DNA of 64,000 nucleotides. It comes from Microtetraspora malaysiensis. Its GTDB lineage: Bacteria; Actinomycetota; Actinomycetes; Streptosporangiales; Streptosporangiaceae. Made by a program: the position numbers and the translations under genes. The notes beneath the pieces are model-generated. The model made no database searches. It saw only the letters and a program-made list of their open reading frames with translations, and had not been told where the DNA came from. The stretch lies in the NCBI RefSeq assembly GCF_001528665.1, contig NZ_BBYJ01000011.1, positions 62,001 to 126,000 of the forward strand, read 5' to 3'. Below, in pieces: positions 27,336 to 60,332 of this stretch (position 1 is the first letter of the stretch; the number at the start of each line of letters is the position of its first letter).

Positions 27336-27983
27336 TCACCGCCCTTCCAGCAGGGCGGAGATCACGTCGTCCCAGCCGGTGAGCGTGTTGCGGACCCGGT
27401 AGGCGTAGAGCCGGTCGAAGACCGAGCGGTCCAGGCGCAGCCAGGCGCTGCCGGGGAAGTAGTGGTCCATGAGGTCCTTCCAGACGCGTACCGGCATGGT
27501 GAAATCGGCCTCGGTGTCCCACGGGACGCGGGCCGCCCGCAGGAGCCCGTCCTCCAGGTAGAAGATCGTCCCGCTGAAGAGGAACTCCAGCGGGACCTCC
27601 CCGCCCGGCAGGGCGTGCAGGTATTTGGTCGCGACCACGTCGAAGTCGTACGTGCAGGTCACCGGGATCTCGGCGGCGCAGCGGCCGTCGTGGAAGGCGG
27701 GGGCCCGCACCGTGGCGTGCGTCCACAGGAGGCCGCGCAGCGTGCGGCCCCAATCTCGCGACGGACCGAACAGCTCGGCGAGGCGTTCCCGCGCCTCGTC
27801 GTCGTAGGAGCGGCGCGCCGCCGCGATGCGGATCTGCGCGTGCAGATCGAGTGAACGGATCTCGGCGGGGCCCGTGCTGTCGAGTCGCGCGTGGAACCGC
27901 AGCGTGGGGACGGCCGCGAACTCGGCCACCTCCACGCCCTCGACCGTCACCCGCAGCGCGGGCGGGCAGGCCGTCGTCGTCAT
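27336..27983 (-). CDS. DUF6084-like hydrogenase-operon protein, 215 aa
   Basis: Soluble protein of mixed alpha/beta character. The core segments RFHARLDSTG, LWTHATVRAPAFHDG and YDFDVVATKYLHALPGGEVP, ending with DVISALLEGR, resemble the DUF6084 family of actinobacterial hydrogenase loci (family named from memory). Function undescribed. It lies 18 bases after the 88-aa gene and 7 bases before the 350-aa gene, inside one minus-strand operon headed by hhyS-hhyL. Conserved aromatic and acidic residues but no cysteine pairs, so metal binding of the usual kind is unlikely. Confidence 0.75.
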   Translation of the reverse strand: MTTTACPPALRVTVEGVEVAEFAAVPTLRFHARLDSTGPAEIRSLDLHAQIRIAAARRSYDDEARERLAELFGPSRDWGRTLRGLLWTHATVRAPAFHDGRCAAEIPVTCTYDFDVVATKYLHALPGGEVPLEFLFSGTIFYLEDGLLRAARVPWDTEADFTMPVRVWKDLMDHYFPGSAWLRLDRSVFDRLYAYRVRNTLTGWDDVISALLEGR

Positions 27984-28001
27984 CGGATGCTCGCCTCCTC
28001 C

Positions 28002-28268
28002 TCAGGCCGGGGAGAGGTTCGGCATACGCGGGTCGATGGGGTCGTGCGCGCTCGGGTTGATCCCGGTGGATCGCGCCGCGGTCGAGCGGCCGTCGGGGAG
28101 GTGGCCCCGCTGGCGCTCGTAGTGCCCCGTCGCGTTGCCCTCGTTGACCCCCTGGAGATGCGAGGTGAAGTCCGGGCTGACCATGGCGCGCCCCGTCCTG
28201 ATCGCCGCGGGCGCCCTGCCCTTCCCGGCTTTGGGCTTGACCTTGGTCGCGGTGTTCGACTTCGTCAT
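28002..28268 (-). CDS. Small conserved hydrogenase-operon protein, 88 aa
   Basis: A very basic N-terminus (KSNTATKVKPKAGKGRAP) is followed by a polar, probably unstructured stretch with MVSPDFTSHLQGVNEGNATG, then PDGRSTAARSTGINP and DPIDPRMPNL at the end. It has almost no hydrophobic core, so it may fold only on a partner. ATG 28268 overlaps the DUF5947-like stop as ATGA. Presence in the tightly packed hhy operon is the main reason to regard it as a real gene. No function known to me. Confidence 0.65.
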   Translation of the reverse strand: MTKSNTATKVKPKAGKGRAPAAIRTGRAMVSPDFTSHLQGVNEGNATGHYERQRGHLPDGRSTAARSTGINPSAHDPIDPRMPNLSPA

Positions 28269-28981
28269 GGCCGGGCTCCTTCCGGTCGGTTCCCGTCACG
28301 TGCGCCGCGGGCGTCCATGGTCGCTGCCCCGCGGCGCAGCTCGGCGAAGAAGGCGGCGATCTCGCGCCAGACGTCCGGCCCACCGGCCAGGCCCTTCCAG
28401 TGCGTCCGGATCAGGCCCACCAGCGCGTAGCAGTCGTCGATCGGCACGATCCAGTGGTCGCGCGCGTCGCCCGTACGGTCGACCAGCAGCGCCTCCACGT
28501 CGGGGGTCAGCCCGCCGAGCACGGGATTGGCCGCCTCCAGCCGGGCCCAGGTCGCGCGGGCCAGCGGCGACTCGACCGCGCCTCCCGGGCTGGGGTAGAG
28601 GAGCACCGCCCGCCGCGCGGCCGAGTCGTGAGAGAAGAACGCCATCCGGACGGGGATGCGCAGGGCGTCCCAGGCCGTGTCGTCCAGCGCGAAGCCGCGC
28701 AGGTGCCAGCGGCGGTCGGGGACGGCCCGGTACTGCCGGCCGCCCGCCCCGGGCCGGTCGAAGAGCGTCGCGCAGGGGCGGCACGCGCAGCGCAGCTCGC
28801 GGCTGGACAGGTCCACCAGGTGCCGGTGCCCGTCCGTGACCGGTGTCCCGCAAAGGTCGCACCGCTCGACGGCCGCCGTGGCGTCCGCGCCCCTGGCGTC
28901 CTGCGGCGTGTCCTGCGGAGTGGTGTTCTGGCGCCGGGTGAGATACCGGCGCAGGGCGTTCGTCGTGATCCGTCGTTCCAT
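28265..28981 (-). CDS. DUF5947-like protein with cysteine cluster, 238 aa
   Basis: Residues about 40-75 hold five cysteines in the order CDLC, then CAC and CATLF (ERCDLCGTPV and LRCACRPCATLF), a likely zinc or iron-sulfur site. The rest is a compact alpha/beta domain with WHLRGFALDD and DHWIVPIDDCYALVGLIRTH. I associate this architecture with the DUF5947 family of actinobacterial hydrogenase operons (from memory). It lies between the NifU-like gene (10-base gap) and the 88-aa gene (ATGA overlap). A role in assembling or protecting the metal sites of HhySL is inference. Confidence 0.75.
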   Translation of the reverse strand: MERRITTNALRRYLTRRQNTTPQDTPQDARGADATAAVERCDLCGTPVTDGHRHLVDLSSRELRCACRPCATLFDRPGAGGRQYRAVPDRRWHLRGFALDDTAWDALRIPVRMAFFSHDSAARRAVLLYPSPGGAVESPLARATWARLEAANPVLGGLTPDVEALLVDRTGDARDHWIVPIDDCYALVGLIRTHWKGLAGGPDVWREIAAFFAELRRGAATMDARGARDGNRPEGARP

Positions 28982-28991
28982 CGCGGCCGCC

Positions 28992-29591
28992 TCACGACGT
29001 CCCGGCGCCGGAACGGCCGCGCAGCAGGCTGTCCACGGGGATCACGGCCGCCGGAGGGGCCGCCTCCTCGATCTCGACCCGCACGATCTCGGGCGCGGCG
29101 TCGCGGATCGCCTCCTCCAGCGCGGCGCGGAGCGCGGGCACCGTGGAGCGGCAGCCGCCGCGGCGGCGCAGCCGGACCCGGGCCACCGGACCGTCGGGGG
29201 CCGCGCCCGTTTCGTCGTCCGCCGGGCCGCCGTCCGCCTCGACCGCGACCAGCTCGGCGCTCGCCCCGCCCAGGCGAGGGGCGGCCCGCTCCACCGCCTT
29301 CCGTACGCGGGTCTCGGTGTCCGACGGGTGCAGGCCGTGCAGCAGGAGCAGGTGCCCGACCAGCTCGTCCGCCGCCAGGGCGCTCCCCAGCGAAGCGCCG
29401 CCCGCGGTCACGGCCGCCGCCATGATCCGCGCCAGGCCCTCGCCGTACAGCTCCAGCAGCGGCTGGAGGAGCTCCGTTACGGTGGCGCGGGCCTGCGGGT
29501 CGGTCATCGACTCGACCCGCTGGAGCAGCTCCTCCACGCGGTGCGCGCGGTCGGCGGCCTCCTCGTCCGTCAGCGGGATGTGCGCTGCCAT
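28992..29591 (-). CDS. NifU-C-terminal-like protein lacking the paired cysteines, 199 aa
   Basis: The C-terminal half resembles the NifU/Nfu Fe-S scaffold: VRLRRRGGCRSTVPALRAAL and EEAIRDAAPEIVRVEIEE. Standard members have two cysteines as CxxC; here only one Cys remains (GGCRST). The N-terminal half is helical, with a long amphipathic segment after DRAHRVEELLQRVES. Start ATG 29591 is chosen for GAGGTGGGAC just upstream. It begins 10 bases after hhyL stops, so it probably delivers or handles Fe-S clusters for HhyS, or acts as a structural partner if it cannot bind a cluster. Confidence 0.75.
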   Translation of the reverse strand: MAAHIPLTDEEAADRAHRVEELLQRVESMTDPQARATVTELLQPLLELYGEGLARIMAAAVTAGGASLGSALAADELVGHLLLLHGLHPSDTETRVRKAVERAAPRLGGASAELVAVEADGGPADDETGAAPDGPVARVRLRRRGGCRSTVPALRAALEEAIRDAAPEIVRVEIEEAAPPAAVIPVDSLLRGRSGAGTS

Positions 29592-29601
29592 CAGTCCCAC
29601 C

Positions 29602-31398
29602 TCAGCCCGACACACTCGTGCCAAGAGTGGGGGAGTGGACCTGCCTGAGCACCCTGCCCTCGCCGAGGTACATGTGCACGCCGCACGGCAGGCAGGGGTC
29701 GAAGCTGCGCACCGTGCGCATGATGTCGATGCCCTTGAAGTTCTCCGGGCCGTTCTCCTCGAAGATGTGCATCCCCTGCACCGCGTCCTCGTACGGACCG
29801 GGCGTCCCGTAGATGTCCCGCGGGCTGGCGTTCCACGGCGTCGGCGGGTACGGGTGGTAGTTGGCGATCTTGCCGTCGCGGATCACCATGTGGTGCGAAA
29901 GGACACCCCGGACGGCCTCGTGGAAGCCGCAGCCGAGCCCCTCCTCCGGGACGTCGAAGTCGGTGAAGACCTTGGTGCGCCCCGCCCTGACCTCGCCGAG
30001 GGCCTGCTCCACGAAGTGGACCGCCATCGCCGCCGCGTACGCGATGAAGTAGACGCGGGCGCGGTCCCGTTCGATGGTGTTGGACCACTTCGGGATCTTC
30101 CACTCGAACTGCATCTCGGGGAGCTGTCCGCTCTTGGGCAGGTTGATGATGACGCTGTGGCCGGTCGCCTTGACCGTTCCGGTGTCCACCAGGCCGGCGA
30201 GCGCCGTGGTCCAGAGGCGGGCGATGGGGCCGCCACCTGTGTCCAGCGCGAGGTGGTCGCCGGTGCGCGAGTCGTACCAGCGGGGGCTCATGACCCAGGA
30301 GTAGTTGCCGTTCTCCAGGTCGCGCTTCTGCGGCCGGGGCAGGGTCGTCTGGTTCCACGGGTGCCGCTGGTCCACCGGGTTGCCGAGCGGGTCGCGGGTG
30401 ACGAACGTCTCCTCGTTCTCCCAGTCGTCGTAGTAGGAGCTGCCCAGCAGGATGCGGATGCCGAGGTTGATGTCGACCAGGTTGGTCGTCAGGAGCTGCC
30501 CGTCCAGAACGATGCCCGGGGTCACGAACATCGCGCGGCCCCAGTCGTTCATCGTGCGGTAGTCGTAGTCGACCACGCCGGGGTTCTGGAACGCGCCCCA
30601 GCAGCCGAGCATGATCCGCCGCCGCCCCACCTCCTCGTAGCCGGGCAGCGCCTCGTAGAAGAAGTCGAAGACGTCGTCGTTCATCGGGACGGCCTTCTTG
30701 ATGAAGTCCAGCGCCCGCAGCAGCCGCACCAGGTAGTCGGTGAAGACCTGCGGCGTCGCGACCGTCCCCACGCCTCCGGGATAGATGGTGGACGGGTGGA
30801 CGTGCCGCCCCTCCATCAGGCAGAACATCTCCCGGGTGAGCCGGCTCATCTGCAGCGCCTCGCGGTAGACCGCCCCGGTGAACGGGTTGAAGGCGCGCAT
30901 GATGTCGGCGATCGTGCGATAGCCGTGGATGTGGCCGTGCGGCGCCTCGGCCGTCTCCGCCCGGCGCAGCAGGCCCGGGTTCGTCTCCTTGACCATCTGC
31001 TCGCAGAAGTCGACGAACACCAGGTTGTCCTGGAAGATCGTGTGGTCGAACATGTACTCGGCGGCTTCACCCAGATTGATGATCATCTCGCCGAGGGGTG
31101 GCGTCTTGATGCCGTACGCCATGTTCTGGGCGTAGACCGAGCAGGTGGCGTGGTTGTCGCCGCAGATGCCGCAGATCCGGCTGGTGATGAAGTGTGAGTC
31201 CCGCGGATCCTTGCCGCGCATGAACACGCTGTAGCCCCGGAACAGGGACGACGTGCTCTTGCACTCCACGACTTCCTTGTTGCTGAAGTCGATCTTGGTG
31301 TAGATGCCGAGGTTCCCGATGATCCTGGTGATCGGGTCCCAGGACATCTCCACCAGCGTCCGCTGCTCCTCGGCCGCCTTCTGCGATCGGATTGCCAC
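29602..31398 (-). CDS. hhyL: Group 1h [NiFe]-hydrogenase large subunit, 598 aa
   Basis: Carries both Ni-binding boxes: RICGICGDNHATC near residues 75-86 and DPCLPCGVH near 567-575. After the last His come 23 residues (MYLGEGRVLRQV onward) that the M52 protease should remove on Ni insertion. The L1 motif with DNHATC instead of the usual xxHxxxS is typical of the actinobacterial high-affinity group (1h, formerly 5). GTG 31398 is chosen: AGGGGA lies 9 bases upstream and the gap to hhyS is 17 bases. Function: oxidation of trace, near-atmospheric H2, normally during starvation, with electrons passed to the respiratory chain. Confidence 0.93.
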   Translation of the reverse strand: MAIRSQKAAEEQRTLVEMSWDPITRIIGNLGIYTKIDFSNKEVVECKSTSSLFRGYSVFMRGKDPRDSHFITSRICGICGDNHATCSVYAQNMAYGIKTPPLGEMIINLGEAAEYMFDHTIFQDNLVFVDFCEQMVKETNPGLLRRAETAEAPHGHIHGYRTIADIMRAFNPFTGAVYREALQMSRLTREMFCLMEGRHVHPSTIYPGGVGTVATPQVFTDYLVRLLRALDFIKKAVPMNDDVFDFFYEALPGYEEVGRRRIMLGCWGAFQNPGVVDYDYRTMNDWGRAMFVTPGIVLDGQLLTTNLVDINLGIRILLGSSYYDDWENEETFVTRDPLGNPVDQRHPWNQTTLPRPQKRDLENGNYSWVMSPRWYDSRTGDHLALDTGGGPIARLWTTALAGLVDTGTVKATGHSVIINLPKSGQLPEMQFEWKIPKWSNTIERDRARVYFIAYAAAMAVHFVEQALGEVRAGRTKVFTDFDVPEEGLGCGFHEAVRGVLSHHMVIRDGKIANYHPYPPTPWNASPRDIYGTPGPYEDAVQGMHIFEENGPENFKGIDIMRTVRSFDPCLPCGVHMYLGEGRVLRQVHSPTLGTSVSG

Positions 31399-31415
31399 CG
31401 TGTCGTTCCCCTCTT

Positions 31416-32462
31416 CTACCGTTGCGGCCAGCGCGGTGCGTATCCGCTGGTGAGCTTGGGCCGGTTGTGCCGCCAGCGGGGCTCCTCGTTGACGGCCGTG
31501 TTCGTGATCCCGCGCAGTCTGCGGATCATCCCCCCGTACACGCTGGACATCGCCGAGGAGACCTTGCCGCCGGGCGGCTCGTCCATGAACGGCATGAACT
31601 TGTCGGGGAACCCGGGCATGGTGCAGCCGATGCAGATGCCGCCCACGTTGGGGCAGCCGCCGATGCCGTCCATCCAGCCGCGCTTGGTGACGTTGCAGTT
31701 GACCACCGGGCCCCAGCACCCGATGCGCACCTGGCACTTGGGCGAGTTGTAGTCCTTGGCGAAGTCGCCCTGCTCGTAGTAGCCGGCCCGGTCGCAGCCC
31801 TCGTGGACCGTCTTGCCGAACAGCCACGTCGGCCGGAGCCGCTCGTCGAGCGGGATCATCGGCGCCAGGCCGGCGGCCTGGTAGAGCAGCCAGGTCAGGG
31901 TCTCCATGAAGTTGTCCGGCTGCACCGGGCAGCCGGGAACGTTCACGATGGGCAGCCCGCCCGCCGAGCGGAAGTCGGCCCCGAGGTAGTCGGTGAGCCC
32001 CATACAGCCGGTCGGGTTGCCCGCCATCGCGTGGATGCCGCCGTACGTGGCGCAGGTGCCCGCCGCGACGACCGCCCACGCCTTCGGCGCGAGCCGGTCG
32101 ATCCACTCGTTGACCGTGATGGGGTCGCCGGTGACCGGGTCGTTGCCCATGGACGTCCAGTAACCCTCGCCATTGATCTTCTCGTTGGGGATCGAGCCCT
32201 CGACGACGAAGATGAACGCGCCGAGCTCGTCCCGCGCGGCGCGGTGGAAGGCCGCCATGAACTCGTCGCCCACCTGCGGGGCCAGCACCTTGTTGTGCAG
32301 GTGTACCTTCGGCAGGCCGGGGACGAGGCCGAGGACGACGTCCTCGATGCTGGGCAGCGACGCGGCGGTCACCGACACCGTGTCTCCGTCGCAGCTCATC
32401 CCCTCTGAGGTCCACAGGATGTGCACCTCGTCCAGCGCCGCGGTAACCGCTGGTGCGCTCAT
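31416..32462 (-). CDS. hhyS: Group 1h [NiFe]-hydrogenase small subunit, 348 aa
   Basis: Electron-transfer subunit with Fe-S ligands in EGMSCDGDTVS (residues 20-30), GTCATYGG, VPGCPVQPDN, GCDRAGYYEQG, GCWGPVVNCN and GICIGCTMPGFPD. In the first motif an Asp follows the Cys where other hydrogenases have a second Cys; group 1h enzymes are known to use Asp as the fourth ligand of the proximal [4Fe-4S] cluster, linked to oxygen tolerance. No twin-arginine signal is present, so the enzyme is made without Tat export. First gene of the minus-strand operon; AGGGGGG lies before the ATG. Confidence 0.93.
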   Translation of the reverse strand: MSAPAVTAALDEVHILWTSEGMSCDGDTVSVTAASLPSIEDVVLGLVPGLPKVHLHNKVLAPQVGDEFMAAFHRAARDELGAFIFVVEGSIPNEKINGEGYWTSMGNDPVTGDPITVNEWIDRLAPKAWAVVAAGTCATYGGIHAMAGNPTGCMGLTDYLGADFRSAGGLPIVNVPGCPVQPDNFMETLTWLLYQAAGLAPMIPLDERLRPTWLFGKTVHEGCDRAGYYEQGDFAKDYNSPKCQVRIGCWGPVVNCNVTKRGWMDGIGGCPNVGGICIGCTMPGFPDKFMPFMDEPPGGKVSSAMSSVYGGMIRRLRGITNTAVNEEPRWRHNRPKLTSGYAPRWPQR

Positions 32463-37866: not shown

Positions 37867-38877
37867 TCATCGCTTGCGCGACTCGGGCGCGGGCACGCCG
37901 ATGACGAGCCGGCGAGCGGCGTCCCAGGCGGCGCGCAGCGCGCGGCCGACCTCGGGTGACTCCTGCCCTAGGAGACGGATCCACGCGCCGCGCTCCCCGG
38001 GCAGCACGCTGGCGCCGCCGCGCAGGCCGGCGCCGCCCGGCGTGATCAGCGGGGCGAGTGCGTGGTGCAGGGTGTCGGCCACCTCGGACGCAGGGACCGC
38101 GCCGGTCACGACGAACAGGGAGGCCATCACCCCGAAGTCGCCGAACACGGCGGGTCCGGTCACCCCGGCGTCGCCGGGCACCAGCCGTAGGGTGTCGGCG
38201 AAGATCGGCTCCCCCTCTGGACCGGCCACCTCCAGGTCGGCGCAGAAGGCCGCGTACGCGTGCCGCTCGCCATGCGCCAGACGGCCGGTGAGCAGCGTCT
38301 CGCCGATCACTACCGTGGCGGACGGATTCGCCGCGACCTCGATCCGCTGGTAGTAGCGGGAGTCCGCGTAAGGGATGGTCGCATCGGGGAGGTACTCCAG
38401 GTAGCTGTCTGCACCGGCGGTGAGGCGGAGGAGGTGTGTGGCATAGTCCTGCTCCATCCGGTAGATCTTGGTGGCCGCCTGGGTGGTCAGGTGGACGGCC
38501 GTCCCCGGCCCGCACACGACGTCCGTCCGGTAGCGGTCGGCCTGCAGGACACCTCCGCCGGACGACAGCAGCATGACGTAGGCCATGTCCGGCCGCAGCG
38601 GGTCGTAATAGTGCGGCCGCATGATCTGCAGCGGCGGCTTCTGGAAGTGCCCGGACAGCTCGGTACGCCGTACGGACCGGGTGAACGCCAGGTCCAGGAC
38701 GCCCACCTTGCCGGGGCTTCCCACTGGAAGGGTGTCGGGGACTCGCGCGTACCGCGTCACGGCCTCCGGGACGCGGGGGAGCGTGTACCACTCGGGGGTC
38801 AGCCGATCGACGGGACGGGCAGGCGCGGGCTCCATCGGGATCGGGCGCTCCGGGTCCGCTACCGTGCCGATGGACAT
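37867..38877 (-). CDS. ureD: Urease accessory protein UreD, 336 aa
   Basis: UreD/UreH family beta-helix scaffold that, with UreF and UreG, opens apo-urease for nickel loading. Recognisable segments: LDLAFTRSVRRTELSGHFQK and PPLQIMRPHYYDPLRPDMAY, LSSGGGVLQADRYRTDV and HLTTQAATKIYRMEQDYA (the QxxTKV-like motif). The length is in the upper part of the family range. The start overlaps the end of ureG by 19 bases. Last accessory gene of the operon ureA-cbiX-like-ureB-ureC-ureF-ureG-ureD. No UreE is present. Confidence 0.9.
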   Translation of the reverse strand: MSIGTVADPERPIPMEPAPARPVDRLTPEWYTLPRVPEAVTRYARVPDTLPVGSPGKVGVLDLAFTRSVRRTELSGHFQKPPLQIMRPHYYDPLRPDMAYVMLLSSGGGVLQADRYRTDVVCGPGTAVHLTTQAATKIYRMEQDYATHLLRLTAGADSYLEYLPDATIPYADSRYYQRIEVAANPSATVVIGETLLTGRLAHGERHAYAAFCADLEVAGPEGEPIFADTLRLVPGDAGVTGPAVFGDFGVMASLFVVTGAVPASEVADTLHHALAPLITPGGAGLRGGASVLPGERGAWIRLLGQESPEVGRALRAAWDAARRLVIGVPAPESRKR

Positions 38878-39488
38878 GTCACCGCCATGCGCTCCTCGAC
38901 GAAGTCGGCGACCTCGGGAACACCGGTCCCGGTCAGGCAGTCGGTGAGGATGACCGGCCGCTCGCCGCGAACGTCGTGCGCCGCCCCCTCCATGACCGCC
39001 AGGTCCGCCCGTACATACCTCGCGATGTCGATCTTGTTGATGATGAGCAGGTCTGAGTCGGTGATGCCGGGGCCGCGCTTGCGCGGCATCTTGTCGCCCT
39101 CGGCCGTGTCCAGCACGAACACGAAGACATCGGTGAGCGCCGGGCTGAACGTCAGTGTGAGGTTGTCGCCGCCGCTCTCGTACAGGAGCACGTTGATGTC
39201 AGGGAAGCGGTCGAGCAGTTCGGCGCCCGCGGCGAGGTTCATCGTCGGGTCGTCGCGTACGGCCGTGTGTGGGCAGGCGCCGGTCTCCACGCCGACGACC
39301 CGCTCGGGTGCGAGGACCCCGGCGAGCACCCGGCGGACGTGCTGGGCGTCCTCCTGGGTGTAGATGTCGTTGGTGATGACTCCGGGCCGGTGGCCCCGCT
39401 CGATGAGGATCGGCACCAGCGCCTCGATCAGGGCGGTCTTGCCGGAGCCGACCGGCCCGCCGATGCCTACCTTGAACACGTTCTGCAT
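38859..39488 (-). CDS. ureG: Urease accessory GTPase UreG, 209 aa
   Basis: SIMIBI-class GTPase with P-loop GIGGPVGSGKTALIEALVP at the N-terminus, LAAGAELLDRFPDINVLLYE, then ESGGDNLTLTFSPALTD and INKIDIARYV (NKxD). The metal-binding Cys-Pro-His motif that bridges the UreG dimer and holds Ni is present as GACPHTAVRDD. ATG 39488 is preferred (GGAGGA 5 bases before); ATG 39515, overlapping the ureF stop, would add nine residues. It drives GTP-dependent Ni delivery to UreC. Confidence 0.92.
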   Translation of the reverse strand: MQNVFKVGIGGPVGSGKTALIEALVPILIERGHRPGVITNDIYTQEDAQHVRRVLAGVLAPERVVGVETGACPHTAVRDDPTMNLAAGAELLDRFPDINVLLYESGGDNLTLTFSPALTDVFVFVLDTAEGDKMPRKRGPGITDSDLLIINKIDIARYVRADLAVMEGAAHDVRGERPVILTDCLTGTGVPEVADFVEERMAVTCPSAR

Positions 39489-39511
39489 GGATTCCTCCTT
39501 CTTCGTGTCGG

Positions 39512-40204
39512 TCATGTGGTGAAGAGGCGGGCCGGGGCCCGCTCGTGCGCGGCGGACGCGGCGTCGGCGGCCGGGCTGGAACTGTGGATGTCGTACGGGT
39601 AGCGCGCCGCGAGGGCCACCCGAGCCGCGTGCCCGATCTCGTCCCGCACGTCGTACAGGATCGACTGGGCCTGGCGGAAGTCGATCCTGGCGAGCCGTAC
39701 GGCGGCGCTCGCCACGCCGGACGCGAAGGAGAAGAGGTCGCCGATGACGGCGTTCTCGGTGCTCACTCCGGAGGCGGCGTGCAGCGCGCCCACCACGACC
39801 GCGTGGTTGCCCGGCGTGGCCTTGGCGCGGATCAGATCTGACAGCTGTTCAGGCGCCTGCCCGCCGAAGACCACGCGAGCCGTTTCGAGCACCTGGCGCC
39901 CGGTCCTGACGGCGGCCGCGCGGATCTCACTGTTGAGTTTGACCGCGTGCAGTCGTCGGTCGGCCGCGATCAACGCGTCCCAGTCGCCGGAGGTGACGGC
40001 TCGGTGCGCGAGGACCAGCGCCCTGCCGTCGCCGGGCCCGGCCGAATGGCGTAGCAGGTCCACCAGGAAGGCGGTGACGTCCACCGGTCCTTCCTGGACG
40101 AGCTCCTCCAGGCCGTACGACAGCGTGTACCGGCCGCTCGGAAACGCCGAGTCGGTCAGCTGGAGCTGGGCCAGCAGCGGTCCCGGATTCGTACGCACAC
40201 TCAC
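39512..40204 (-). CDS. ureF: Urease accessory protein UreF, 230 aa
   Basis: All-helical UreF family: [20 protein letters not shown] near residues 14-33 is the diagnostic start, then [19 protein letters not shown] and [20 protein letters not shown]. It links UreD to UreG and gates GTP hydrolysis. It overlaps ureC upstream (4 bases) and ureG downstream at ATGA, so the accessory proteins are translationally coupled to the catalytic subunit. Start is a non-ATG codon at 40204. Confidence 0.9.
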
Positions 40205-41925
40205 GCCAGAAAGAACAGCTGGGTGAGCGGTAGCGTGCGGGCCGGTTCGATCGTGGCGTGCTCGCCGTCCACCGTGACCTTGTACGTCTCCGGGTCCACC
40301 CGGATCTCCGGCAGAGCGTTGTTGCGGATCATGTGCTGCTTGGTGATCGTACGGGTGTTCCGGACGGGGCGGATCATGCGCTCCAGGCCCAGCTTCTCCG
40401 GGACGCCCGCCGCGATGGCCGCCTGCGACATGAAGGTGACGTTCGTCGCGGGCAGGGCCCGGCCGAAGGCCGCGAACGTGGGCCGGAAGTAGACCGGCTG
40501 CGGAGTGGGAAGCGAGGCGTTCGGGTCGCCCATCTGGGACCAGACGATCATCCCGCCCTTGATCACGATGTACGGCTTGGCGGCGAAGGACGTCATCGGC
40601 CAGATCACGATGTCGGCGAGCTTGCCCTCCTCCAGGGAACCGATCGTCTCCGCCACGCCCGTGGTGCGGGCCGGGTTGATGGTGAGCTTCGCGATGTAGC
40701 GCAACACCCTGAAGTTGTCATTGCGCTCGGAGTCCTCCGGCAGCTTGCCGCGCCGTTCCTTGCAGAGGTGGGCGACCTGGAACGCCCGGGTGAAGGTTTC
40801 GCCGATCCGGCCCATCGCCTGGGAGTCGGACGAGACCATGCTGATCACGCCCAGGTCGTGCAGCACGGTCTCGGCGGCGATCGTCTCGGCGCGTACGCGA
40901 CTATCGGCGAAGGCCACGTCCTCCGGCACGTCGTGGCTGAGGTGGTGGCAGACCATCACCATGTCGAGCAGTTCGTCGACGGAGTTCACCGTGTAGGGCA
41001 GCGTCGGGTTGGTCGACGAGGGCAGCACGTTCGGCTCGCCCGTGACGCGGAGCAGGTCGGGTGCGTGCCCGCCGCCCGCCCCCTCGCTGTGGAACGTGTG
41101 GATGGCGCGGCCGTTGAAGGCGCTGATCGTGTCCTCGACGTAGCCGCTCTCGTTGAGGCTGTCGGTGTGGATCGCGACCTGGATGTCGTACTCGTCGGCG
41201 ACACGCAGGGAGGTGTCGATGACGGCCGGTGTCGTGCCCCAGTCCTCGTGGACCTTCAGCGCACACGCCCCGGCGAGGATCTGCTCGGTGAGCGGCCCGG
41301 GGAGACTGCTGTTCCCCTTGCCCATCAAGCCGATGTTGATCGGCAGTGCCTCGAACGACTTGAGCATGGCGCCGATGGCCCACGGTCCCGGCGTGCAGGT
41401 GGTCCCCCGGCTCCCGTCGGAGGGACCGACGCCGCCGCCGATCAGCGTGGTGAATCCGTTGCTGAGCGCGGCCTGGACCTGTTGCGGGGAGAGCAGGTGG
41501 ACGTGGGAGTCCATCGCTCCCGGCGTGGCGATCATGTGCTCGCCGGAGAGCACCTCGGTACCCGGGCCGATGACGAGCCGCGGGTCGACGCCGTTCTGGG
41601 TATGTGGGTTTCCCGACTTGCCGATCCCGGCGATCAGGCCGTTCTTGATGCCGATGTCCCCCTTGACCACGCCGAGGATCGGGTCGATGACCACCACGTT
41701 GGTGATCACCATGTCGAGGGCGACGGCGGAGTTGGTCGCGGCCGGGGCCGAAGCCATGCCGTCCCTGACGGTCTTGCCGCCGCCGTACACGGCCTCGTCG
41801 CCGTAGAAGCCGACGTTGTGGTCCTTCTCCACCTCCACGACGAGGTTGGTGTCCGCGAGCCGGAACCGGTCGCCGACCGTGGGCCCGAACATGTCGGCGT
41901 ACTGCCGGCGGCTCATGGTGGTCAT
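40201..41925 (-). CDS. ureC: Urease alpha (catalytic) subunit, 574 aa
   Basis: Amidohydrolase hydrolysing urea to ammonia and carbamate. Active-site elements visible: [14 protein letters not shown] (first Ni ligands), [16 protein letters not shown] (carbamylated Lys), HTDSLNESG and the flap [20 protein letters not shown] with the mobile-flap Cys-His. ATG 41925 overlaps the ureB stop at ATGA; the open frame continues through the ureB region but in the wrong frame. Length agrees with bacterial UreC (about 570). Its flap reads CHHLSHD where many have CHHLDPR, a modest change. Confidence 0.94.
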
Positions 41926-42503
41926 CAGGACTCTCCCTTCTTGGCGGTCCGGGGCTTGGTCGCCCTCTTCGGTTTCCCCGGCGCCTCGGCGGCTTTCGCG
42001 GCCTTCGCGGGTTTCGCGGGTTTCGCGGGTTTGGCGGCCTTGGCCGGAATTCCCGGTCTCTCGGCCGGCGCCACCGCGACCGGTGTCATGCCCTCGCCGG
42101 TATCGATGAAGCCGAAGGCCCGCAGCTTCATCAGGGCGAGGGCGTGGGTCCGCTCCGAATGGATCCCGCCGTTGACCAGGCCGCTGAAGCCCATCAGGCG
42201 CATGCCGCCGCCGTACTCGACGAGCGGAACCTCGTGCGTGTCGCCCGGTTCGAGGCGGACCGCGGTGCCTGCCGGGAGGTCCAGGTGCATGCCGAAGGCT
42301 GCATCCCGGTCGAAGGCGAGCGCCCGGTTGGCCTCGAAGAAGTGATAGTGCGAGCAGACCTGGATCGCCCGATCCCCGGTGTTCCGCACGGTCAGGGTCG
42401 TCTTCCGGCGGCCCACGTTGATCTCGATGGGCTCGTCGGCGTACAGGTATCTCTCGCCGTGCGGCAGACGCTCGTGCGTGTCGGCTCGTTTCGTGGGTGC
42501 CAT
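41925..42503 (-). CDS. ureB: Urease beta subunit with a Lys/Ala/Pro-rich C-terminal tail, 192 aa
   Basis: Residues 1-140 are a normal UreB ([20 protein letters not shown], then [20 protein letters not shown] and [20 protein letters not shown]), where the family usually has 100-130 residues. Then follow about 45 residues of low complexity with repeated [10 protein letters not shown]-like units and [18 protein letters not shown], similar to histone-H1-like tails. The DNA for this part contains the 9-bp unit GGGTTTCGC repeated. The tail is very basic and may bind nucleic acid, metal-loading factors or the cell envelope, which is guesswork. It starts 23 bases after the CbiX-like gene. Confidence 0.9.
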
Positions 42504-42526
42504 GGCTCGCCTCCCAGTTGTGCCTC

Positions 42527-43258
42527 TCAGTGGTGGTGGTCGTGCCGCGCGGACGGCGCGACGACGAGGCCGTCATCGTGGTGTTCATCCCACCGGTGCT
42601 CGGCGGCCGTGACCCGTTGCCCGATCAGTTCCTCCAGGGCGGCGGGGGAGAGCAGCGGACCCGAAGCGATCGTGCCCGGGGGTGTGGCGGGCTCGACGAA
42701 CGATGCAGGGACGACGACCACCTGCCGGGCGCCGAGCAGGCGACATCGGGTCACGCCCTCGGCCACGTTCGGGTCCCCGCCGATCAGCGCGACCTCGACC
42801 CGGTGGCATCCGCTGTGCTCCCGGGCGAGCCGGGCCACCCGGAACAGCTCGGCGTCCTCGTCCGCCGTTGCCGCCGGCGCGACGATCAGGACCGCCCCCG
42901 CCTCGGGCTCCGGTACGGCGACCCGCCTGGCCGCGGCCCGGATCCACCCGACCAGGTGGTCCACCGTGGCGAGCGGGGGCGCGAGCAGTAGCTCACCCGG
43001 CTCGCGCTCCCGGCTGTTCCAGCGGAGCACCCGTGCGATGTCGGCGACGACCCCGGCGTCCCGCCCCAGGGTCATGGGGACGACGACGGCCGGCCCGCGA
43101 GTCAACGCGTGCAGCCCCGACCCGACGCCGGTCACCATCTCCCGGCAGAGCCCGCGCAGGGCGCCGCCGTACCCGCTCTCGTGCCCTCCGACGAGTACGA
43201 CCTCGCGCCTCATCGTCACCGCGGCCGACCCCGCCGTTTCCGTCCGGACCGCCGTCAC
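42527..43258 (-). CDS. CbiX/SirB-like chelatase-family protein with His tail, inside the urease operon, 243 aa
   Basis: Two CbiX-like halves: [20 protein letters not shown] and [20 protein letters not shown] in the first, then [20 protein letters not shown] with [20 protein letters not shown] and [12 protein letters not shown] in the second. CbiX proteins insert Co, Ni or Fe into tetrapyrroles. The usual GHGS active-site motif is altered (VGGHES). The C-terminus has [21 protein letters not shown], a metal-binding tail like that of UreE. It starts two bases after ureA and ends 23 bases before ureB. No cobalamin genes are nearby, so a nickel carrier for urease is more likely than a chelatase. 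That is inference. Confidence 0.8.
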
Positions 43259-43260
43259 GC

Positions 43261-43566
43261 TCAGCCGCCGATGGGGTCGTGGCAGGAGACCAGCTTGGAT
43301 CCGTCAGGGAAGGTCGCCTCGATCTGCATGAGCGGGAGCATCTCCCGCACCCCGTCCATCACGTCCGCGGAGCCGAGGACCTGCTTGCCCAGCTCCATGC
43401 AGTCGGCGACGCTCCTGCCGTCGCGCGCGGCCTCCAAGATGGCCGCGCTGACCATCGCGACCGCCTCGCTGTAATTCAGCTTCAGCCCGCGTGCCCTGCG
43501 CTTGGCGGCCAGGTCGGCCACGATGTAGATCAGCAGTTTGTCCAGCTCGCGCGGTGCGAGGTTCAT
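43261..43566 (-). CDS. ureA: Urease gamma subunit, 101 aa
   Basis: Typical Ure[21 protein letters not shown] at the start, [20 protein letters not shown] and [20 protein letters not shown], then MEGVREMLP-like [20 protein letters not shown]. The frame is open far upstream, but ATG 43566 with AAAGGGAA before it gives the family length (100). It follows the urea transporter after 38 bases and is separated from ureB by the CbiX-like gene, an unusual interruption, since ureA and ureB normally adjoin or are fused. Confidence 0.93.
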
Positions 43567-43604: not shown

Positions 43605-44594
43605 TCATGTCCGGCGGAGCCGGGACAGCACAGGGATGGCGGCGAGGAACACCCAGGTGACGAGGACGAACGGCCAGGTGAGCGTGTGGCCGCCGAACGG
43701 CAGGAAGAAGTCGGTGATGGCCGCGGTCAGCGCCGTGGCCGAGGCCGCGCCGATCACCGCGAACAGGACGCCGAGCGGTGACAGGACGACGAAGACGCCG
43801 CAGAGCGCCATCGCCGTCAGGACGGCGTTGTAGCCGTACAGGCCGGCGGCGACGTCGGCGGCAGGTGCGCCCAGAGCCCAGGCGACGAACATGCCGAACA
43901 GGCTGGACAGGACCGCGGCGGCCGCGGCGACACGGCTCGCCATCAGCAGCCCGACCAGGAAGATGAGGCCGACGTACCACTTGTCCTGGAAAAAGACCTG
44001 ACCGATCCCCCGGAACATGCCCTGCCAGACCTCGTTCCAGGACAGTGGGATGGCACCGCGCGTCGCCGACGGCGGCGGCGGGCCGATCCTGCCCTGCGCC
44101 ACATGCCGGAAGGAGGAGGCGGCGAGCAGCATGACCGTGGTGATCACGCAGAACGGCGCGGTGAGTGTCGGCAGGCTGTACGGCGTCAGTACGCTGTTCA
44201 TCGCCGACGTGAGCACGCTCCCGCCGATGCACCCGCCGATGGTCAGCAGCATGGTCACCCAGCTCGTCCCGAAGTACAGGACGAAGGCCACGCCGATGAG
44301 CGTGCCGGGAAAGCCTTCGAGGCCGAGCCTGACCCGGTCGGACGCGGCGCCGAACACGTACGCGGTGAGCGTGGCCACCCCCGAACCGAGCAGGCCGAAC
44401 ATCCCGTACTGCCAGCCGCCGACGAACAGGGCGACGATGAAAAGGATGCCGGCCCAGTAACTCGCCATGAAGTCGACCTGTCCGACGCCCCTGATCACGG
44501 GAAGCAGCGCGCTCAACGGCGGGCGTCGCATGGCCTCGACGAGCCGAGTTGGGGTCGCGGGTGTCAAAGAGTGGCCCCCCGGGAACGAGGACAT
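43605..44594 (-). CDS. Urea transporter (UT family), 329 aa
   Basis: Integral membrane protein with about ten helices arranged as two similar halves: [40 protein letters not shown], then [20 protein letters not shown] and [17 protein letters not shown]. The half-repeat signature (EGFPGTLIG and YGYNAVLTA) is that of UT/Yut urea channels. It heads the urease operon and is divergent from the ammonium transporter across 176 bases. It brings urea in passively for UreABC. Confidence 0.86.
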
Positions 44595-44770
44595 GCCGTG
44601 GCGAGTGCGTGCTTTCTCGCAGGCTGTATTTCCTCGCAGCAGTGGCCGGACGCGCCCGGGACCATGAAGGGACCAGTTGCGGAGGAAGGCTTTGCTTTGC
44701 TCGTGCCTCGCCGATCCGCGCGGGAGGAAGGAACAGAAGGTGATCCTGCTCCGCTAAGCGAGGTTCCGTG

Positions 44771-45979
44771 ATGCCGGTCGGACTCAACACAGGCGACTCC
44801 GCCTGGGTGCTGGTGAGCACCGCGATGGTGCTCCTGATGACCCCCGGCCTGGCGTTCTTCTACGGCGGCATGGTCCGCGCGAAGAACGTCTTCAGCATGG
44901 TCTTCATGAGCTTCGTCTCGATCAGCATCGTGACGATCATCTGGTTCGGCTACGGGTACGGCCTCGCGTTCGGCAAGGACGCGGGCGGGCTCGGGCTGAT
45001 CGGCTGGGGCGACTTCCGCTTCGCGAACATCCTGCCGTCAGATCTCACCGGCAGGGTCCCGAAGTACGCCTACGCGCTCTTCCAGCTCACCTTCGCGATC
45101 ATCACGGTGGCGCTGATCAGCGGCTCGGTCGCCGGACGCACCCGGGTCGGGCCGTGGATGGTCTTCTCCCTGCTGTGGTCGACCTTCGTCTACTCGCCGG
45201 TCGCGCACTGGGTGTTCGACCGTACGGGCTGGATCAACAAGATGGGGACGCTCGACTTCGCCGGTGGGCTGGTGGTCGAGCTCAACTCGGGCATGGCCGG
45301 GCTCGCGCTGGCGATCGCCCTGGGGCCGGGCATCCGCTACCGCCGCAGGGAACCGCCGGAACCGAGCAACATCCCGATGGTCATGATCGGTTTGGCCCTG
45401 CTGTGGTTCGGCTGGTTCGGCTTCAACGGCGGATCCGCGCTGGCGGACGGCAAGGTCGCGGTCAACGCCTTCGCGAACACGTTCATCGCAGGCTGCTCGG
45501 GGATGCTCACCTGGATGGCCGTCGAGTGGTTCAGGAAGCGGCGGCTCAGCAAGCTCGGCTCGGGCACCGGTGCCGTCGCCGGGCTGGTCGCCATCACGCC
45601 CTCATGCGCGTACGTGAACGTTGAGGGCGCCTTCGCGATCGGGATCTTCGCCGCGCTGCTCTGTTCGTTCGCGGTGCAGTGGAAGTTCGTGCTCGGGTAC
45701 GACGACACGCTGGACGTGGTCGGGGTACACGGCGTCGGCGGCATCGTCGGCCTGCTCGCGCTCGGCTTCTTCTCGACCGGCTTCCTCGGTCGCGCCGGGC
45801 TGTTCTACGGCGGTGGGGGAGCGCTGCTCGGCAGGCAGGTCCTGGCGATCCTCGCGGTGATGTTCTACACCTTCGTCGTCACGTACCTGATCGGCAAGCT
45901 CGTAGACCGGACGCTGCGGCTGAAGGAGACGGAGGAGGAGCAGCTCGCCGGATCGGATCTCCAGTTCGGCACGGAGTGA
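44771..45979 (+). CDS. amt: Ammonium transporter (Amt/MEP family), 402 aa
   Basis: Eleven predicted membrane helices. Amt marks: [17 protein letters not shown] near residues 22-38, the [10 protein letters not shown] segment and the pore-region [16 protein letters not shown] with conserved His. No long cytoplasmic tail. ATG 44771 directly follows GTG 44768; either may be used, with GAGG upstream. Divergent from the urea transporter/urease operon, so urea entry, hydrolysis and ammonium handling are adjacent. No glnK follows, unlike the usual amtB-glnK pair. Control by GlnR is likely in actinomycetes but I found no certain site. Confidence 0.92.
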
Positions 45980-59327: not shown

Positions 59328-60332
59328 ATGACCGATGGCCCGCCCGATGTGCTGCTCTCCCGATTCGCGGAGAGTCCGTTGCGCATCGGCACCCGCACGT
59401 CCGCCCTGGCCCGGGTCCAGGCCGAGCACGTGGCCACGCTGATCGGCACGCACGTGCCGGGCATCCAGGCGGTGATCGTGCCCACCCAGGTCAGCGCCGA
59501 CCTGTGGCCCGGTGACCTCGCCGAACTCGGCGGCAAAGGCGCGTTCAGCAAGGAGATCGACCGCGCACTCGTGTCCGGCCAGATCGACGTGGCCGTCCAC
59601 TGCATGAAGGACGTCCCCGGAGACGTCCCCCTCGCCGAAGGCACCTCCTTCGGCGCCTACCTGCCCCGCGACGACGTCCACGACATCGTCGTGACCCGTG
59701 ACGGCACCCCGCTCGCCGAGATACCCGCAGGATCCCTGATCGGCACCAGCTCGGTACGCCGTCGCGCCCAGCTCGCCATGTACCGGCCCGATCTACGCAC
59801 CGAACGCATCCGCGGCAACATCGACACCCGCCTGGCCAAGCTCGAAGAGAACGACAGCCGCTACGCCGCACTGATCCTCGCCCGCGCCGGCCTGAAGCGA
59901 CTCGGCATCCTCGGCCGGCATCACCACGAGGTCCTGCCCGTGAAGTTCCACCCCTCCGACGCCGGTGTCGTCTCCATGGTGCCCGCGGTCGGCGCCGGGG
60001 TCATCGGCGTCCAGGCCCGCCAGGCGGACACAGCCGTCATGCGGCTGCTGGACGAACTCAACGACGACGCGACCGCGCGGCACATCCTGGCCGAGCGGAC
60101 GATGCTGCACCTGCTCCGCGGCCACTGCAACAGCCCCATCGCCGGATACGCCTCCACCACGGCCGACGGTGCGCTCTCGCTGTTCGGCATGGTGTTCAAC
60201 CGCGACGGCTCGCAGTTCGTCCGCTCGCACGCCTGGGGCGGGGCCGACGACCCGGCCGCCCTCGGCTCCCGCGTGGCCGCCGACCTGCTCCATCAGGGCG
60301 CCGGCCGCCTGATCGCCGCCACCCGCAAATGA
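59328..60332 (+). CDS. hemC: Porphobilinogen deaminase (hydroxymethylbilane synthase), 334 aa
   Basis: HemC fold: LRIGTRTSALARVQAEHVAT near residues 18-37, KGAFSKEIDRALVSGQIDVA with AVHCMKDVPGDVP (Lys and Asp of the active site), GTSSVRRRAQL and RIRGNIDTRLAKL. The Cys that carries the dipyrromethane cofactor is in LLRGHCNSPIAGYAS near residue 264. It joins four porphobilinogens to hydroxymethylbilane. ATG 59328 is the family start; the longer open frame upstream is leader. No other haem gene is nearby, and the sequence around the cofactor Cys (GHCNSP instead of GGCxxP) is divergent, so this may be a second, specialised copy. Confidence 0.87.
   Translation: MTDGPPDVLLSRFAESPLRIGTRTSALARVQAEHVATLIGTHVPGIQAVIVPTQVSADLWPGDLAELGGKGAFSKEIDRALVSGQIDVAVHCMKDVPGDVPLAEGTSFGAYLPRDDVHDIVVTRDGTPLAEIPAGSLIGTSSVRRRAQLAMYRPDLRTERIRGNIDTRLAKLEENDSRYAALILARAGLKRLGILGRHHHEVLPVKFHPSDAGVVSMVPAVGAGVIGVQARQADTAVMRLLDELNDDATARHILAERTMLHLLRGHCNSPIAGYASTTADGALSLFGMVFNRDGSQFVRSHAWGGADDPAALGSRVAADLLHQGAGRLIAATRK

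Follow-up and report, generated by a model that had tools for sequence, protein, structure and literature searches.

Nickel routes to urease and the class II chelatases

Ureases of bacteria that lack UreE have so far been explained by a His stretch on UreG. The available text of PMC2770081 describes such a stretch in all but two of the ureE-less genomes, the exceptions being Bradyrhizobium japonicum and Frankia CcI3, which have neither UreE nor the UreG His stretch and for which HypB was suggested. The His-stretch UreG, of the Mycobacterium tuberculosis type, is thus a known second way of managing without UreE (PMC2770081, accessible part); in the operons described here, by contrast, the His stretch lies on a separate protein and UreG itself is His-poor. 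Hpn and Hpn-2 of Helicobacter, described in the portion of PMC4671568 that is available, are likewise small nickel proteins rich in His and connected with urease; they are compared below with the separate protein, which is called X in what follows.

By descent and fold, X is a member of the class II chelatase superfamily. The metal triad of SirB consists of His10, Glu43 and His76, and CfbA, a homodimer that inserts Ni for F430, uses His9, Glu42 and His75 (accessible sections of PMC11301274). The C-terminal lobe of X superposes on CfbA, and the CfbA-type Ni site is absent from X. CbiX(L) of Bacillus megaterium has, as has X, a His-rich C-terminal extension, proposed in the available part of PMC7689651 to serve metal storage and delivery. 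With SirB and CbiX(L), X shares the fold, a CbiX Pfam match and the first metal His; unlike them it is shorter, has lost the second His and the segment on the Glu side, and is found in urease operons. The place in a urease operon, a His-rich C-terminus (at least 4 His in 51/51 tails) and the presumed role are shared with UreE, from which X differs in having no UreE domain, a chelatase-like fold and a slot between ureA and ureB. Since it has no UreE domain and fails the metal triad, X is filed here, as regards function, as neither a UreE nor a CbiX/SirB enzyme. Our search of the open-access literature, which placed most subscription papers outside its scope, turned up no publication dealing with a CbiX-like gene for urease, and the parts available of PMC11534348, PMC8538451 and PMC7055735 hold nothing that bears on one.

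A chelatase-like gene between ureA and ureB

The window, a stretch of 64,000 nucleotides from Microtetraspora malaysiensis, contains the following features around X.

44768..45979, plus strand: ammonium transporter gene amt, often adjoining the cluster (Pfam)
43605..44594, minus strand: urea transporter gene (UT), first in the conserved cluster (Pfam)
43261..43566, minus strand: ureA, urease gamma (Pfam)
42527..43258, minus strand: X, class II chelatase-like protein with a C-terminal His tail, 243 aa (ORF, Pfam, model)
43175..43189, minus strand: X motif GGHES, residues 24-28
43052..43081, minus strand: X segment of residues 60-69, including GRD
42530..42565, minus strand: X tail, residues 232-243
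41925..42503, minus strand: ureB, urease beta with a Lys/Ala/Pro-rich tail (Pfam)
40201..41925, minus strand: ureC, urease alpha (match to ureC of related loci)
39512..40204, minus strand: ureF (Pfam)
38859..39515, minus strand: ureG, no His stretch at the N-terminus (Pfam)
37867..38877, minus strand: ureD (Pfam)
29602..32462: [NiFe]-hydrogenase

Read along the minus strand, the order is UT, ureA, X, ureB, ureC, ureF, ureG, ureD, with amt divergent. X starts with GTG 2 bases past ureA and stops 23 bases short of ureB, so that the order from ureA to ureD and both gaps given in the initial annotation are confirmed. The junction with ureA is tight elsewhere too: each of the 19 order-set loci that retain ureA has a start codon of X at -4 to +2 bases from the stop of that gene; RNA folding of the ureA/X junction gave no structure signal (z 0.24). 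The UreB of the window has a Lys/Ala/Pro-rich C-terminal extension, and L137, L138 and L142 have similar termini. The operon of the window, which has X and a UreG without His, is accompanied in the genome by a second one, L130, of the type called class II below, which has a His-bearing UreG and no X; a third ureB match is also present.

Further along the window, genes for small and large hydrogenase subunits stand with DUF5947 and DUF6084 genes (27336..32462), 5 kb from ureD. X had been proposed to serve this Ni-hydrogenase as well, a link which is unsupported: the hydrogenase subunits of the window are unmatched at all 55 of the named loci introduced below, with flanks of at most 8 kb, shorter than the 10 kb between X and the hydrogenase in the window. 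A HypA match is present in the genome, so a hydrogenase-type nickel supply for the urease may exist. It was also remarked that no tetrapyrrole pathway is near, which is not quite so, as hemC, for porphobilinogen deaminase, lies 16 kb from the urease operon (59328..60332).

Fold and altered chelatase site of X

Pfam CbiX (PF01903) matches with 27.5 bits against a cut-off of 22, over the C-terminal half only, and is found at E<=0.01 in 42 of 50 X members; the NCBIfam scan gave no match for X, the family has no meaningful NCBIfam name, and when X was scanned with Pfam neither UreE_N nor UreE_C appeared with E<=1. The sequence alone retrieved nothing from the PDB, and a profile retrieved weak matches only, namely CfbA, SirB and one nucleoporin, the CfbA match (E 0.007) taking in a His-rich stretch of that protein. 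The AF2 model, built on a 50-row alignment, has a pLDDT of 91.3 and a pTM of 0.86, and its best structural match is B. subtilis SirB, at Z 14.9 and rmsd 4.2 over 211 aligned residues with 14% identity, followed by CbiK, ferrochelatases and CbiX. The fold is common with SirB across residues 14-232, and the C-terminal lobe alone matches CfbA with Z 11.7 and rmsd 1.8 over 84 residues. As modelled, then, X has the two-lobed class II chelatase fold, in keeping with its first description as a two-half CbiX/SirB-type protein, Pfam accounting for the C-terminal half and the model for both.

G25, H26 and E27, and G65, R66 and D67, are invariant in all 50 rows of the alignment, which omits L038, L045, L077, L078, L081 and L085. 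When 19 X rows were aligned with 12 chelatases, the first metal His was seen to be kept, as H26 within GHE; the second, expected right after GRD, falls at a position that is not conserved in X, the stretch GGFIELSPPPL of most relatives is deleted, and the C-lobe has no His pair. The deleted stretch would be, by inference from the alignment, the site of the triad Glu. Of the SirB-type triad, the first His alone remains. The motif VGGHES, read originally as an altered GHGS, is present, but the His of GHGS is kept with just the neighbouring G changed to E, and the true losses lie elsewhere.

The same genome has other members of the family. A SirB-like protein with both N-lobe His (C8) adjoins PAPS-reductase-like and sulfite-reductase-like genes, a CbiX-like protein (C31) adjoins a cobT-like gene, these labels being given by reading, and C12 is a weak further member. 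The C31 protein (C31:61852-62589; L002, L003) keeps the GGF stretch and has lost its Glu and the second N-lobe His; in its C-lobe it has GHG, where X has none. Loss of such residues is therefore no proof, by itself, of a lost chelatase, and losses of the C31 type probably occur in proteins that still work on tetrapyrroles.

Association of X with one clade of ureases

Three samples were searched: 200 genomes of the order, 394 of the class and 198 of the phylum, the last drawn differently from the class sample. X orthologues occur in 21 of the 200 order genomes, with 50-79% identity excluding the window genome, and the matches in 100 other genomes are weak only (E no better than 2e-11). In all 21, X is followed by ureB and ureC, the ureC being 70-100% identical to that of the window. 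In 19 it is preceded by ureA and UT; in the remaining two, L010 and L028, at most 15 bases lie between the beginning of the contig and the start of the X match. The linkage of X to urease is thus far above chance. In the class sample X was found at E<1e-50 in 5 of 394 genomes, with 29 more at 1e-12 to 1e-18, the level of an ordinary CbiX. These five are exactly the five with the UreG type of the window (at least 74% identity, the rest at most 58%), and two of them belong to another family (f28), where X lies again between ureA and ureB. The phylum sample gave X at E<=1e-25 in 1 of 198 genomes, the window genome itself, and a plasmid collection gave two matches, on large Streptomyces/Embleya replicons.

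Two peptide patterns, run against named genomes in a scan that was not exhaustive and overlaps partly with the order sample, brought together 55 X loci from Microtetraspora, Streptosporangium, Nonomuraea, Spongiactinospora, Actinomadura, Actinocorallia, Streptomyces, Kitasatospora, Streptacidiphilus and one MAG. Loci of S. griseus and K. aureofaciens were found as well. The arrangement ureA-X-ureB is found in 42 of the 55 (40 if no match overlap is allowed, L045 and L063 being added with slight overlap). Six more are truncated by contig ends yet consistent with it (L038, L055, L074, L075, L078 and L081), four Actinomadura loci are rearranged to UT-X-ureB-ureF-ureG-ureD with ureA-ureC behind ureD (L051, L066, L068 and L084), and three have no adjacent urease (L046, L052 and L067). 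A UT match accompanies 49 of the 55. At 52 of the 55 loci X adjoins ureA, ureB or both, rather than sirohaem or cobalamin genes, none of which was recognised by eye among the gene calls of the three urease-less loci. Close homologues sit in urease loci, in favour of the initial annotation, against which a majority in cobalamin or sirohaem loci, with the site intact, would have told. Of the more distant ones, five whose neighbours were read (L029, L030 and L183-L185) all lie amid cobalamin-type genes, as judged by reading.

In Streptacidiphilus sp. 4-A2 (L077, 7971..9983) X and ureB share one open frame, either a fusion or an assembly error, the latter being as likely since the frame overruns ureB out of register with ureC. 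An X-UreB fusion was set aside as a candidate; the long frame of L085 resembles a frameshift within the tail.

UreE, UreG and the two urease classes

UreE was not found in the window genome, in line with its absence from the urease operon remarked at first: UreE_C is unmatched at E<=1 across its 8.8 Mb, and UreE_N has no match above the cut-off, the two that it gave (E 0.3 and 0.8) being at the level of chance. The wider claim, that X replaces UreE, does not hold in its plain form. No genome of the 200 in the order sample, with or without X, has UreE_C above the cut-off (there were two sub-threshold matches), whereas urease beta occurs in 145 and X in 21, so X is not simply found where UreE was lost; it tracks one urease clade, and UreE is missing beside many X-less ureases too. 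The expectation that a CbiX-type gene between ureA and ureB would go with absence of ureE is accordingly borne out for gene order, at the 42 loci given above, and not for absence, as ureE is absent with or without X. In the class sample four of 394 genomes, none carrying X, have UreE_C above the cut-off; the model is weak, its passing matches scoring 24.7-29.7 bits against a cut-off of 23, so a divergent UreE could escape it.

For convenience we call class I those ureases whose UreG is at least 73% identical to that of the window, which are usually UT-linked and have UreC at 70-94%, and class II those with UreG at or below 57% and UreC mostly at 48-61%. All 21 order-sample X genes adjoin a ureC of class I level. 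In a UreC tree that took every fifth class II row and included two identical pairs, class I forms one branch (support 100/100; 59 rows, 53 with X), within which two losses of X are required. Class II loci cannot show how frequent the absence of X is, because the X-less loci L130-L169 were picked as ureB places away from X. Their UreG often begins with a stretch like MGAHHDDHHHAPDGRGRALRLGI, and at least 3 His stand in the 27 residues before the P-loop in 21 of 32 class II loci. Four class II ureases (L157, L158, L160 and L161) have neither His at the UreG start, nor X, nor UreE_C above the cut-off.

At least six class I operons without X were found, with UT alongside (L137-L142). Four of them have a His-rich UreG start; these form one sub-clade with a single gain on the tree, so they do not count as four independent cases. 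L137 and L142 have neither X nor such a start, and something else can therefore serve. In X-bearing loci the UreG start, taken as the one that aligns across loci (MELEQVYKIGI or alike), is His-poor in 50 of 51, L071 being a possible exception whose start is unsure. Two cruder counts, whose Fisher values both ignore shared ancestry, give 8/51 X-bearing against 4/6 X-less loci with the longest possible start (P 0.015) and 4/51 against 5/6 with a fixed 27-residue window (P 1.7e-4). The longest-start count was set aside as misleading, the raw positives other than L071 being in our judgement read-through over the upstream ureF region, and the extras of the fixed window, L137 and three of the four X-bearing loci, come from the ureF overlap.

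Small membrane-protein pairs that resemble CrcB/Fluc by reading were seen beside urease clusters at the following places.

L137, 8445..9309: CrcB/Fluc-like pair
L138, 9702..10474: CrcB/Fluc-like pair
L170, 1655..2472: CrcB/Fluc-like pair
L171, 6944..7752: CrcB/Fluc-like pair
L172, 10546..11372: CrcB/Fluc-like pair

Fluoride inhibits urease, so this neighbourhood may be functional.

The His tail

The HH and HDHHH clusters noticed at the C-terminus of the window protein are there: X ends in RHDHHH, and EHHDDG directly precedes the tail. Across the family the tail starts after the conserved DDG, and its sequence varies between species while being rich in His, with Gly and Asp besides. Of the tails linked to urease 51 were counted, and each has between 4 and 75 His, which make up 26% of residues; that of the window, with 4, is the poorest among them. 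The three without adjacent urease have 3 His each, the lowest of all 54, for which the median is 12, and, two of these three being from sister species, they represent two events at most. The count leaves out L074, L077, L078, L081 and L085, takes in L055 and L075, which run into the contig end, and lacks L199, which gave no countable gene call. The tail in Streptomyces abyssomicinicus (L061, 7986..9701) has 349 residues with 75 His. Within Spongiactinospora the urease-linked L047 has the tail HGHGHHHDHHHH, compared with RDHDDRER or RDHDHQEG in the relatives without adjacent urease.

His tails are not peculiar to X, as they also occur on CbiX proteins of actinobacterial cobalamin loci; L029, L032, L034, L183, L191, L195 and L196 combine a Cys motif (CDTC or CDSC) with a His-rich C-terminus. 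Given these, and the extension of CbiX(L), the tail of X may have been inherited.

X without urease

In Spongiactinospora rosea and S. gelatinilytica the UT-X pair is retained with the same flanking genes and no adjoining urease. No urease alpha was found in the S. gelatinilytica genome, the completeness of which is not given; S. rosea has a divergent one elsewhere in its genome (44% identity), and for L046, the MAG locus, a class II-like one (54%) lies on a different contig of the same genome. Between the two species the X core differs by 18 nonsynonymous and 25 synonymous changes over 475 and 194 sites, which indicates purifying selection (one-sided P 7e-5 against neutrality with even mutation), and dN/dS is 0.29 for the core, 0.22 for UT and 0.52 for the tail. 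The core may thus act apart from urease: if urease was not lost recently, the core has some further role. No other finding speaks as strongly for X doing more than supplying urease with nickel, and it fits a split in which the core has another partner and the tail is for nickel.

Possible functions of X

We favour, with a probability of roughly 0.55, the reading that X is a nickel-binding urease accessory protein, a carrier on a recycled chelatase scaffold. Support comes from the linkage to urease, the junction spacing, the degraded chelatase site, the His tails, the His-poor UreG and the absence of UreE; against it stand L137 and L142, the C31 CbiX, the Spongiactinospora core, the His tails on cobalamin-locus CbiX, the weakness of the UreE_C model and the 4 His of the window tail. 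With the His tail kept and the usual nickel carrier missing, X probably holds nickel for urease. In outline, X would derive from a CbiX-type chelatase and no longer insert metal into tetrapyrroles, and gene order and spacing suggest that it is made together with the urease subunits. Its tail, judging from composition and from what is known of His-rich nickel proteins, would collect Ni(II), and the invariant residues suggest that the chelatase-fold core either anchors X to the maturation complex or provides a metal site of altered form. The nickel would then be handed on, perhaps by the core, presumably to UreG with UreF and UreD, and X would fill, for one actinobacterial urease clade, the role held elsewhere by UreE or the UreG His stretch.

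A more specific version, considerably less probable, makes X a protein metallase, in which the remnants H26, E27 and R66/D67, with the His tail as loader, give nickel to apo-urease or UreG. The core would also have an older partner, perhaps UT, which would explain how X survives without urease.

About as unlikely as the metallase is a nickel store or buffer in the manner of Hpn, acting during urease synthesis and not delivering the metal in any specific step. The variability of the tails and their wealth of His, Gly and Asp, with up to 75 His in L061, suit such a store, and there is a precedent in Hpn, which is His-rich, sequesters nickel and interacts with UreA (PMC4671568, available part). 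A store, however, would have no need of a folded core that is conserved and keeps GHE and GRD invariant, or of a fixed operon slot. Hpn and Hpn-2, unlike X, are not known to have a chelatase-fold core.

Somewhat less probable still, the core could serve UT or urease assembly, for instance as a urea-binding or subunit-binding scaffold, with the His tail a secondary nickel-binding add-on. The UT-X pair kept without urease in two Spongiactinospora, with its core under purifying selection and a tail of 3 His, argues for this, as do the four Actinomadura loci in which X directly follows UT, ureA having moved off, and the position of X amid structural rather than accessory genes. Yet UT also accompanies the X-less class I operons L137-L142, the fold matches of X are chelatases, and S. 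rosea and S. gelatinilytica are sisters that perhaps record one recent event.

It is improbable that X remains a metal-tetrapyrrole chelatase, acting on Ni or Co sirohydrochlorin and co-regulated with urease by happenstance. The CbiX Pfam match above cut-off and the class II chelatase fold agree with an active enzyme, and the C31 CbiX beside the cobT-like gene, likewise without the second N-lobe His, makes one slightly likelier. Urease, though, uses no tetrapyrrole, and a SirB-like protein that has both His is encoded elsewhere in the genome. An active chelatase was judged unlikely from the residues lost in the alignment of 19 X rows, with two of three N-lobe metal ligands gone, a segment deleted and no C-lobe His pair. 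That X is a passenger gene without urease function, as its loss at least twice in the clade might suggest, is very improbable in view of the same slot across several families, the near-touching genes and the invariant residues.

Implications

Should the carrier reading be true, X would be a third solution to missing UreE, present in many soil actinobacteria, among them many Streptomyces relatives and kin, and would show a cofactor-synthesis enzyme becoming a metal-trafficking protein. X turns the nickel route to these ureases into a single-gene question.
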